From Verrucomicrobiota bacterium (GTDB taxonomy: Bacteria; Verrucomicrobiota; Verrucomicrobiia; JADLBR01), in assembly GCA_029560585.1 (NCBI GenBank), contig JAKQKQ010000187.1:1-64000 (forward strand): 64,000 bases of DNA, read 5' to 3'. The notes below the pieces were generated by a model. The model did no database searches, was not told the DNA's origin, and saw nothing but the letters and a program-made list of their open reading frames with translations. The position numbers and the translations under genes were made by a program. Position 1 is the stretch's first letter; every line of letters begins with the position of its first letter. Shown here in pieces: positions 41,830-45,843 of this stretch.

Positions 41830-44800
41830 TCACGGTGCCTTCATGTCGACCAGAAGGGAGTCGGGCAGGTATTTGCCCAGCAGGTAGTATTTGCGGTCGG
41901 GATACCAGAGGACGCGCTGGCCGCGCCATTCGGTGAGGCTCGGATACGTGGCGATTTCGGCGGTCTTCTTCGGACCGACGATCACACCCTGCGTGTCGAG
42001 GATTTGCTTCGGGAAGCTGAACCAGATCGGCTGGTGGGCCGCGGGGCGAAATTCGCCCACCGCGATGAACGCCGGGTTGCGGAGATAGTTGGCCTGATTG
42101 ACGGTCCATTTCGTCTTCCACTGGCTGTAGTCGCCGCGGGTGCCGTCGTTGTTGTGGAACACGAGCAGGAAGCGCCCGTCGGCAAGGGGGTAGATCGGGG
42201 CTGGCGCGAGCGGCTGCGGGACGGGGTCTCCGCCGTCCCGATAGCACAGCGGCTCCGGTTTGCGCCACGTCGTCCCGTCGTCATCAGACACGCTGTACCA
42301 GATCGCGCCCGCCATCGTGCGCATCGCCACGAGCAGTCGGCCGTCCGGCAGCAGCACGACGCACGGTTCCTGCGCGACGGACATGTCGGGGAACACGCGG
42401 TTTGGAACCTCCAGACCCTCGCGATCCGTCGGCAGCCATGTGACCTTCAGATCTTTCGGTTCTGGGCCATCGTCAATGTTCTCGAAACGCGCGAACGCGC
42501 AGCGACTGTCCTTGTGGACCCAGAGTTTCGATGGCCACTTCTTGACCGCCTGACTGGTCGTCGTGGTGTACCCGAGAAGATATCGACCATGCCGATCGCG
42601 CGTCGCGGTTGTCCAGAGCCAGTAACTCTTGGGGATCGCAGGATCGGGATGATCAAAGCGGTTTCGGGGCATCGGGATGTCGGCGCCCGCGGCCCATGTT
42701 GCGCCATTGTCGTCACTGTAGTGGCAACCCATGCCGCCGGACTCCTGCTTTTGCCCGGCCTCGGCGCGAGGCTGCTCCTTCACATAGACGCAATAGATGC
42801 GGCCCGTTCGTGCGACGATGGGCACACCCCAGCTCGCCTGGGGCTGCTTCGTTCCCGGCGGCGTTCCCGCGATGCGCTGCGGCGAGGACCAGTGGATGCC
42901 GTCGCCACTGCGGGCCAACATGATGCGGTTGTCGCCGCGCCCCTCGACGCTGCTCTGCGTCCACATGCCGAGGAGTTCCTCACTCTTGGGCGCCTTGAAG
43001 ACGATAAACATCTCGTTGTCGCCGTCGTGATGATCCCCCTCCTTCGGCAGATAGACGACGAGGTCGGGCTTGCTGCGTCTCCAATCGGTGGCGGGGTCCG
43101 CCAGGGCCTTCGCGGCGGACGTGCTCGGGGCCATCGCTGGGCCAGCGGTTTCCAGCGCTATGACGGTATCGGCTGGATCGACAGGTTTGGCCGGCAGCGT
43201 GATCGTGGCGTTCCCGCCCTCGCGTGTGAATCCCAGCGCCTGTTTGTCGCCCAAGATTATGGCGCGCCCGACATCCGCCCGAAGACCTTCCACGAGCAAC
43301 TTGCCGCCTGAGGGCCAATCGAACACGTGCAGATAGAGATTCTTGCCCTTGGCCGTGCATCGCCCCCATGCGGGCTGGCCGATGGGCGAAGCGGACGCCC
43401 CGTGGATGCTCTCCCCATTCTTCATCATCCAACGGCCGATTTCCTCAAGGCAGCGCACGCTCTCCTCCGGGATGGTGCCGTCGGCCTTCGGGCCGATGTT
43501 TAGCAGGAGATTGCCTCCCTTGCTGACGATGTCGACGAGGTGGCGGATGATCTGCCCCGATGATTTCCAATTGTGGTCGAGCCGGTGATAACCCCAAGAG
43601 TCGTTGATTGTCATGCACGTCTCCCACGGTTCGCCCAGCGCGGCATCCGAGATCTGGTTGTCGCCCAGCGACCGATAGTCCCACACCTCGCCCCCGACGC
43701 GGCTGTTCACCAGGCATCCGGGCTGCAGCTCATGAACCATGTTGACGATGCTCTTGCTTTCCTCGGGAGGGATGTCGTACGGCACGTCGAACCACATCAC
43801 GCCGATATCGCCGTATTGGGTCAGCAGTTCCCGGATCTGCGGCTTCGCCTTCTCGTTCAGATAGCGGATGAAATCTTCCTTCGTCCGCGCCGGAAAATCC
43901 CAGGTGTTGCCATACTTGTTCCAGTTGGCCAGCGGGTGCTGGTGATCCCGGGCGTGGCTGTAGTAGAAACCCATCTTGATCCCCTGTGCCATGGCAGCAA
44001 CGGACAGTTCCTTGGCGGGATCGCGCTTGAACGGCGCCGCGTCGACGATGTCGAAGTCCGACACCTTGGAATCGAACATCGCGAAACCGTCCTGGTGCTT
44101 CGCGACAAAGACCAGGTAGCGCATGCCCGCCCGTTTCGCCAGGCCGACCCATTCATCGGCATTGAACTTCTGCGGATTGAACTCACGGGCGAGCTTGGCG
44201 TATTCGGCCATGGGGATCTTGCAGGCCAGCATGATGTGCTCGGCGTATTTCCTTTTGAATTCCCTGCCCTCCCACACGCCCGCCGGGATGCTGAATAGCC
44301 CCCAGTGGATGAACATGCCGAACCTCGCCTCGCGCCACCACGCGATTCGACCGGAGACCGGAGCAGGCGCCCTCTCGCTCGCCTTCGCCGCCCCGATGAT
44401 TTGCAGGTCATCCACCTGTTGGCGTGAGAAAATCTGGCCCACCTCCTTGAAAAAAGGCGAGTCAAACCACTCCTTGCCAATGGTGCGGCCAAGCAAGAAG
44501 AATTTCCTGTCTGGATACCACAGCACCGGCCTGCCCTTGCGAACGGTGAAACTCGAATAGAGCGAGAGATCGAACCGGCCGCTGGTGCCTGGCTTGCCGA
44601 GGCTGACGTTGTCGTGGTCCATGAAGAACCGTGGCTCGTCGAACCACACGGGCTGGTCCGCGCCGGGCTGGAATCGGCCCGCGACCAAATAGACCGGCCG
44701 CCGATTGAACCCCGTGACGGGAGGCGTTGGCCTGTAGCCTTTGAAGTTGCCGTCGTTGTCGTGGATGAAGAGCACGTAGCGACCGCTGCCCGCCTCGTTG

Positions 44801-45843
44801 CCACCGACGTCATACATCGGGCAGGGCGAGATCGGGTGCAACAGAGGCTCGCCCCCGTCCTTGCGAAGCAGGCGGCGCGGCTCCGCCCACGTCTCCCCGC
44901 CATCGGCGCTCACGCTCCAGAAAGGGCTTCCGGCCCCCGTGCGCATGACGCAGAACAGCCGTCCGTCGGGCAATTTCACGATGGAGGGCTCCTGGCAGAC
45001 GCTATTCTCAGGGCATTTCGGATACGGCACGGCCAAAGCCTTCTCGTTGGCCGCGAACCAGCTGATCTTCAGATCCCGTGGCTCCGGGCTGTCATCCACA
45101 TTCTCGAAGCGCATGAACTCGACGCGCGAATCGGCGGACGCCAGATTTTTGATCGGCGATGGCTTTCTCACCTCAAAACTGGTCCAGCGCGTGAAACCCG
45201 CGAAGTACTTGCCGTCCTTGCCGAGCCGCAGCGGCTTCTGCCAGCAGAGCATATTCGGTGGCATCGAGGGGTCGGGATTGTCGTTGATGCTGCGCGCGAC
45301 GGGAATGTTCTGCGGTCTCGACCACGTCGCGCCGTTGTCATCGCTGAAAATACCGTTCAGCCAGCCGGTGTGGTGGACGAAACAATCGGATTTGCCGATG
45401 CTCTGGCTGTAGAGCACGTAGATCCGACCCCTCCTGCTCACCAGCGGATAGGCCCAGCTGGCCATCGGCCCGTCCCCCGCCCGCTTCGGCCCGGCGAGGA
45501 TGCGCGGCTTGGACCAGGTCTTCCCATCGTCCTTGCTCTGCGAAAACGTGATGTGCTGGTCCGGCGGTGTGTCGGGCGAGTAGTTCTCCACAGAGCTTTG
45601 CGTCCACACGGCCATCAGCGAACCATCCGGTCCGTCGAACACGAGAAAGTGCTCGTTGCCGGTGTCGCTCACGCCCGCGTCGCCGACCTCCGGCACAAAC
45701 ACGACGTAGTCGGGCCTGGTGATGTGGAGCTGCATGGCGATACGCGCCTTAAGTTCGGAGGGTGACGCGATGAAATGCTTGTTGGTGTCGGTTCCATGCA
45801 ATACAGCCGACAGCGCGAGAAACAGGAACGGGAGATGTTTCAT
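41830..45843 (-). CDS. Three-domain exported enzyme: sialidase-like / alpha-L-fucosidase (GH29) / sialidase-like
   Basis: This 1337-residue protein has a signal peptide (MKHLPFLFLALSAVLHG) and AAAGGA 9-10 bases before the ATG. Residues 40-475 are a propeller with SKDDGKTWSKP, SDDNGATWSRP and SADGGETWAEP, ending VLWYPDRKFFLLGR. Residues about 498-905 are a complete GH29 fucosidase: WWREARFGMFIHWGLFSIPAGVWEG, FVAKHQDGFAMFDSKVSDFDIVD, the nucleophile Asp686 in IGVMWFDVPYD, and SKGGNLLLNIGPKADGTIP. Residues about 925-1337 are a second propeller, a relative of the first (WTQSSVE in both; VLWYPDRKYYLLGK at the end). No linker stop is present. It probably removes fucose and a second sugar from one glycan. 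Confidence 0.85.
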   Translation of the reverse strand: MKHLPFLFLALSAVLHGTDTNKHFIASPSELKARIAMQLHITRPDYVVFVPEVGDAGVSDTGNEHFLVFDGPDGSLMAVWTQSSVENYSPDTPPDQHITFSQSKDDGKTWSKPRILAGPKRAGDGPMASWAYPLVSRRGRIYVLYSQSIGKSDCFVHHTGWLNGIFSDDNGATWSRPQNIPVARSINDNPDPSMPPNMLCWQKPLRLGKDGKYFAGFTRWTSFEVRKPSPIKNLASADSRVEFMRFENVDDSPEPRDLKISWFAANEKALAVPYPKCPENSVCQEPSIVKLPDGRLFCVMRTGAGSPFWSVSADGGETWAEPRRLLRKDGGEPLLHPISPCPMYDVGGNEAGSGRYVLFIHDNDGNFKGYRPTPPVTGFNRRPVYLVAGRFQPGADQPVWFDEPRFFMDHDNVSLGKPGTSGRFDLSLYSSFTVRKGRPVLWYPDRKFFLLGRTIGKEWFDSPFFKEVGQIFSRQQVDDLQIIGAAKASERAPAPVSGRIAWWREARFGMFIHWGLFSIPAGVWEGREFKRKYAEHIMLACKIPMAEYAKLAREFNPQKFNADEWVGLAKRAGMRYLVFVAKHQDGFAMFDSKVSDFDIVDAAPFKRDPAKELSVAAMAQGIKMGFYYSHARDHQHPLANWNKYGNTWDFPARTKEDFIRYLNEKAKPQIRELLTQYGDIGVMWFDVPYDIPPEESKSIVNMVHELQPGCLVNSRVGGEVWDYRSLGDNQISDAALGEPWETCMTINDSWGYHRLDHNWKSSGQIIRHLVDIVSKGGNLLLNIGPKADGTIPEESVRCLEEIGRWMMKNGESIHGASASPIGQPAWGRCTAKGKNLYLHVFDWPSGGKLLVEGLRADVGRAIILGDKQALGFTREGGNATITLPAKPVDPADTVIALETAGPAMAPSTSAAKALADPATDWRRSKPDLVVYLPKEGDHHDGDNEMFIVFKAPKSEELLGMWTQSSVEGRGDNRIMLARSGDGIHWSSPQRIAGTPPGTKQPQASWGVPIVARTGRIYCVYVKEQPRAEAGQKQESGGMGCHYSDDNGATWAAGADIPMPRNRFDHPDPAIPKSYWLWTTATRDRHGRYLLGYTTTTSQAVKKWPSKLWVHKDSRCAFARFENIDDGPEPKDLKVTWLPTDREGLEVPNRVFPDMSVAQEPCVVLLPDGRLLVAMRTMAGAIWYSVSDDDGTTWRKPEPLCYRDGGDPVPQPLAPAPIYPLADGRFLLVFHNNDGTRGDYSQWKTKWTVNQANYLRNPAFIAVGEFRPAAHQPIWFSFPKQILDTQGVIVGPKKTAEIATYPSLTEWRGQRVLWYPDRKYYLLGKYLPDSLLVDMKAP

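Follow-up and report, generated by a model that had tools for sequence, protein, structure and literature searches.

The window analysed in this work is the 64,000 nucleotide stretch at positions 1 to 64,000 of contig JAKQKQ010000187.1, from the genome assembly GCA_029560585.1 of a Verrucomicrobiota bacterium. On its minus strand a single gene (45843 to 41830) encodes a GH29 alpha-L-fucosidase domain located between two propellers of the sialidase fold, an order which was recovered from no other genome searched. The combination of domains is rare and new, while the building blocks belong to known fold families and the propeller family is widespread but uncharacterised. We consider it reasonably probable (about 0.6) that the product is a secreted multi-catalytic exo-glycosidase with three active sites, which would trim one glycan of its fucose and of adjacent sugars that are probably non-sialic.

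The fused gene

Direct reading of the window DNA places the ATG of the gene at 45843 and its stop codon at 41830-41832. The frame running from 45843 down to 41833 is composed of 1337 residues with zero internal stops, in agreement with the original prediction, made from the sequence alone, of one uninterrupted frame, for which no strand had been named. The purine-rich AAAGGA ahead of the ATG is likely to be the ribosome-binding site. The protein is composed of the following parts.

45784..45843, minus strand: likely signal peptide, residues 1-20 (MKHLPFLFLALSAVLHGTDT), read from the sequence as a basic start followed by a hydrophobic core
44479..45783, minus strand: propeller 1 (P1), residues 21-455, sialidase-fold BNR_2 domain (Pfam, AlphaFold2, Foldseek, residue mapping)
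44353..44478, minus strand: linker, residues 456-497, containing 'QQVDDLQII' (comparison with loci L011, L037 and L009)
43411..44343, minus strand: GH29 alpha-L-fucosidase catalytic domain, residues 501-811 (PF01120, alignment to 9rzy, 9s0x and 9rzx)
43144..43410, minus strand: C-terminal part of GH29, residues 812-900, presumed small beta-sandwich (co-linearity with 9rzy, 9rzx and 6gn6)
41833..43068, minus strand: propeller 2 (P2), residues 926-1337, sialidase-fold BNR_2 domain (Pfam, AlphaFold2, Foldseek, residue mapping)

Pfam reports BNR_2 in two stretches (E 1e-32), one on either side of the Alpha_L_fucos match; the sole NCBIfam match was a chance one to a ribosomal protein and was discarded. 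P1 and P2 are about 39% identical and share the motifs WTQSSVE (residues 80 and 961) and VLWYPDRK (residues 440 and 1311); the two propellers are related as had been proposed. Well beyond what chance would give, relatives of each of the three domains are present in other genomes at 78-90% identity, and dN/dS against the relatives ranges from 0.08 to 0.24 for each domain; as these comparators are unfused or differently fused, the values bear on the domains and not on the fusion.

The GH29 domain

Residues 501-811 match PF01120 (Alpha_L_fucos) over profile positions 28-345 of 345 (E 9e-92, 309 bits against a cut-off of 25.2), and the alignment with the solved GH29 fucosidases 9rzy (E 2e-105), 9s0x and 9rzx spans the whole domain, which bears out the claim of a complete GH29 domain. 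Its proposed nucleophile, Asp686, aligns with the WFD nucleophile motif of the solved enzymes. The PWE motif is also kept, and its Glu741 is the likely acid/base candidate. Co-linearity with 9rzy, 9rzx and 6gn6 extends to about residue 900. The likeness to GH29 alpha-L-fucosidases, including AlfC (6o18), involves the full-length catalytic domain, the nucleophile, the PWE motif and the co-linear C-terminal part, whereas the surroundings of the domain are different: GH29 enzymes usually have their catalytic domain joined to one or two beta-sandwich domains on the C-terminal side (PMC10154630), and here the domain sits between two propellers.

Fold and catalytic residues of the propellers

The AlphaFold2 models of P1 and P2 have a mean pLDDT of 90.7 and 91.3, respectively. 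For both models the best Foldseek matches are to sialidases of GH33, with 11-19% identity and a TM of up to 0.72 on the target; those of P2 comprise sialidases and 5hx0. GH33 sialidases are six-bladed propellers of clan GH-E, and both P1 and P2 have the sialidase-type propeller fold with Asp-boxes. BNR_2 (PF13088) is matched by all 49 family members, with P1 alone scoring 56 bits against a cut-off of 31.4.

Residues were mapped with hhalign, by aligning the profile of the family with canonical sialidases that carry YRIP and come from genomes of Akkermansia-type and other Verrucomicrobiota. The GH33 catalytic Glu, Arg2, Arg3 and Tyr map to Glu285, Arg301, Arg381 and Tyr429 in P1 and to Glu1159, Arg1175, Arg1255 and Tyr1300 in P2, and all four, including the Tyr nucleophile and its Glu partner, are invariant in the 49 members, P2 included. 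The arginine triad of GH33 is incomplete, with Arg2 and Arg3 kept and Arg1 absent. The Arg1 position is occupied by Glu in 46 members and Asp in three (N-E-H with Glu64 in P1, N-E-M with Glu944 in P2); this register is an ungapped reading, and P1 residues 62-66 and their equivalents carry no conserved Arg in any register throughout the 49 members. The GH33 Asp acid/base loop is shortened or absent in 39 of the 49, and close by, within WTQSSxE, is the invariant Glu86/967, which may stand in for the Asp. P1 and P2 therefore resemble GH33 sialidases in fold, Asp-boxes, catalytic Glu, two Arg and Tyr, but differ in the absence of the YRIP motif (Glu/Asp for Arg1), in the invariant Glu of WTQSSxE, in the loss of the Asp loop in most members and in having only about 15% identity. 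Between the two propellers several well-conserved positions are different (65H/945M, 202Q/1078T, 219R/1094T and 220W/1095T), which suggests different specificities.

The GH181 sialidase of Akkermansia (Amuc_1547) is a sialidase-fold propeller which, like P1 and P2, has two of the three triad Arg, and it is active with these two only; it has however a Gln in place of the GH33 Tyr nucleophile, whereas the P1/P2 family keeps the Tyr (PMC10067855). Membership of P1 and P2 in GH181 was rejected on the grounds of a weak profile match only and of the Tyr kept in all members.

Both propellers look catalytic rather than binding-only, yet unlike canonical sialidases. The suggestion that they may only bind is disfavoured, since the Glu/Arg/Arg/Tyr core is kept in both. 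Of the term sialidase-like, the fold stands (modelled at a pLDDT of about 91), while a plain sialidase is disfavoured by the absence of Arg1 from the carboxylate triad, with Glu or Asp in 49 of 49, and by the lack of a NanE match in the host genome, in a search that covered NanE alone among sialate epimerase routes.

Related fusions and rarity of the order

Proteins with two of the three domains are present in other genomes. P1-GH29 occurs in one frame in L009 (the same as G176; 947 codons) and in L010 (1018 codons), GH29-P2 in L046 of G001, a sister genome of the same genus as the host, and P1-P2 as a tandem in L013 and L014. The domain families in these two-domain fusions are those of the window protein, with identities of 64-90%. 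The full P1-GH29-P2 order was seen only in the window, both among the genomes of 93 relatives, 388 of the phylum and 384 of the class (searched for the GH29 domain) and in a pattern scan, not exhaustive, of the genomes of 84,980 species. Among the papers searched, we found none describing this architecture or multicatalytic GH29-GH33 proteins. The architecture had been noted as an unfamiliar one, and this applies to the full order, while its pairs occur elsewhere; as they do so in other genomes, the protein is on sequence evidence best described as a mosaic of a modular family rather than an isolated oddity.

GH29 domains of the window subclade (at least 77% identity) gave long matches in four genomes only, each time fused to a propeller, and the next closest GH29 domains are at about 52% identity. 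A possible fifth genome is represented by L041, a short contig-end fragment with 64% identity over 76 residues. Separately, locus L162 (G305; 2596-6033, minus strand) carries a frame of 1146 amino acids with a C-terminal P1-like propeller preceded by about 700 residues without Pfam match, possibly another propeller fusion.

Origin of the fusion and the assembly

In the sister genome G001 a separate P1 gene is found some kilobases upstream of the GH29 start. The N-terminus of its GH29 protein, reconstructed from the contig ends L011 and L037, which overlap L046 by 127 and 117 identical bases, has a signal peptide followed by '..ADDLQIV..' or '..ADDIQIV..'. The stretch after P1 in the window protein, 'QQVDDLQII', and its counterpart 'QQAEDLQLI' in L009 correspond to what follows the signal peptide at the unfused GH29 N-terminus of G001, and by this comparison the fusion has swapped the fucosidase's own signal peptide for the upstream P1 protein.

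A tree of 53 propellers places the window P1 within a clade of seven that has full support and contains both fused (L009/L123, L010) and unfused (L011, L037, L066, L116) members. The window P2 groups with P2 of the P1-P2 proteins and of a Rhodopirellula metagenome-assembled genome (87-90% identity), apart from P2 of the genus-mate G001 (64% identity, different subclade). The tree thus presents the protein as a mosaic, the joins of which were probably made more than once. Directly upstream of the fused gene a sulfatase-like start (MSRRGG...; 45884-46141, minus strand) breaks off, which is a sign of rearrangement; DNA matches to it of 77-79% are present in contigs C147 and C19 of the same genome. 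The PMT_2 gene upstream of the fused gene has a homologue in G001 (79% identical), and immediately after this homologue comes an unfused P1-type gene (70%).

An assembly join, named in the original prediction as what would overturn it, is on the sequence very unlikely, and we regard a chimera of separate genes as highly improbable. The host genome is a draft of 336 contigs, which leaves room for such an error, but both the P1-GH29 and the GH29-P2 joins are present in independent genomes. No near-identical copy of the fused gene is present in the host genome; the closest DNA copy, at 76% identity, extends over P1 only. The assembler thus has no near-identical repeat to cross over on, and a repeat-driven chimera was rejected.

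Proposed function and alternatives

In the proposed enzyme the central GH29 domain would remove alpha-L-fucose by a retaining mechanism with Asp686 as nucleophile. Each propeller would form a separate active site from a Glu-assisted Tyr, two Arg and Glu86/967, the last probably replacing the Asp acid/base, and P1 and P2 would each take off a different neighbouring sugar of the same fucosylated glycan. The role of the fusion would be to let the domains work on this glycan one after another. Given that the carboxylate-binding triad lacks its first Arg, the propellers are expected to act on non-sialic substrates, and, in view of the conserved positions at which P1 and P2 differ, on different ones. 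The fusions of P1 to GH29 (L009, L010) and of GH29 to P2 (L046), being different combinations, point to a functional link. As regards the target, we infer a fucose-containing algal or plant polysaccharide as the likely one, since freshwater Verrucomicrobia are rich in GH29, GH78 and GH95 (PMC5615132) and consumption of sulfated methyl pentoses has been described for marine Verrucomicrobiota (PMC8857213). A more specific version is put forward tentatively, at somewhat less than even odds: P1 and P2 could form a glycoside hydrolase family not yet described within the sialidase superfamily, with a chemistry of its own (Glu for Arg1, Glu for the Asp acid/base) and a non-sialic sugar common in algal or plant matter as substrate, and the three active sites could act in order on one branch, taking off this sugar, fucose and a further sugar.

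Several points weigh against a three-site enzyme. Retained residues do not prove catalysis, and many BNR_2 proteins are uncharacterised. Arg2, Arg3 and Tyr were assigned by a profile alignment at about 20% identity rather than by superposed coordinates, and the role of Glu86 as acid/base is guessed from where it lies and from its being invariant. The purifying selection measured bears on the domains and not on their fusion.

The propellers may alternatively be true sialidases, GH33-like with one lost Arg tolerated, in which case the whole protein would act on animal-type or microbial sialoglycans and free them of sialic acid and fucose. The closest solved folds are nearly all sialidases, the Tyr, Glu and two Arg are kept, and GH181 is active with only two of the three Arg (PMC10067855). 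GH181 is however not the same case, having lost the Tyr which P1 and P2 keep, and the change of Arg1 to Glu or Asp in all 49 members is a reversal of charge; together with the loss of the Asp loop in most members and the missing NanE, within the scope of its search, this makes true sialidases the least likely of the functional alternatives. Slightly better placed, though still unlikely, are propellers serving as carbohydrate-binding or scaffold domains which keep the fucosidase on its glycan. GH29 enzymes commonly have accessory domains which may serve in binding (reviewed in PMC10154630), and related propellers occur also in tandem, but the residues of the catalytic core are invariant in both propellers over the 49 sequences, and stand-alone P1-type genes are found in many genomes, which is unusual for a binding module.

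We give about the same low weight to an accidental fusion, in which a recent deletion joined neighbouring genes and the product has no function beyond that of the separate proteins. The separate P1 gene of the sister genome, kilobases upstream of the GH29 start, the truncated sulfatase-like start and the placing of the window P2 in a subclade different from that of the sister's P2 are all in line with such an event. Against it, GH29 of this subclade is fused to a family propeller in all four genomes in which it was found, in three combinations, and all domains are still intact. The three-site enzyme is the preferred reading.

Members of the P1 family are widely distributed among Verrucomicrobiota and Planctomycetota, with about 70-86% identity to the window P1 across both phyla, and their genes are often in clusters rich in further sialidase-like proteins. 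The several combinations in which this family is fused to a fucosidase give a direct clue that the substrate probably bears fucose next to the sugar of the propellers. The fused protein represents a compact test case for such a fucose-adjacent substrate, and may help to explain dozens of sialidase-like genes in an organism where NanE was not found.

Gene neighbourhood and genome context

The following genes of the window have homologues at P1 loci of other genomes.

39695..41800, minus strand: next gene, about 700 amino acids, without a match in Pfam; the frame as read has a twin-arginine-like start
37760..39625, minus strand: BNR_2 protein, 621 amino acids (Pfam)
30244..32124, minus strand: BNR_2 protein of the same cluster (Pfam)
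50478..52562, plus strand: BNR_2 and Laminin_G_3 protein (Pfam)

Homologues of the 39695-41800 gene (64-68% identical) adjoin P1 or P1-GH29 genes in L009, L010, L016 and L068, and its product belongs to an unnamed family which is probably linked to the same glycan as the fused protein. For the BNR_2 gene at 37760-39625, homologues with 75-86% identity are near P1-type genes in at least L010, L013, L015, L016 and L019. Those of the gene at 30244-32124 (81%) adjoin P1-type genes in L014 and L017, and those of the BNR_2/Laminin_G_3 gene (70-79%) in L014, L015, L017, L023 and L030. Altogether, at roughly half of the P1 loci taken from the genome collection, homologues of several cluster genes (64-86% identity) adjoin the P1-type gene; the Isosphaeraceae P1 loci are without them.

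Between 17.7 and 57.1 kb the window carries, apart from the fused gene, four BNR_2 genes and GH36-like, rhamnogalacturonase/epimerase-like, esterase, GH123-like and sulfatase genes. A cluster for sulfated substrates is not supported by synteny, as a sulfatase motif search in the flanks of P1 loci gave just one outside the window (L016). At 52572-55673 (plus strand) a protein of 1033 amino acids combines CBM9-like and GH123-like domains.

The host genome has 21 GH29 matches and 39 BNR_2 matches (the BNR_2 pair of the fused gene at 42145-45624, minus strand), and an L-fucose isomerase is present; these contents, and the gene cluster of the window, are in keeping with the proposed enzyme. In view of the 39 BNR_2 matches and of no detectable NanE, many of its sialidase-annotated genes may have a substrate other than sialic acid. 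At the start of the window (866-6454, minus strand), a phage-integrase-family gene is accompanied by DUF3987 and CHC2 zinc-finger genes and looks like part of an integrated element.

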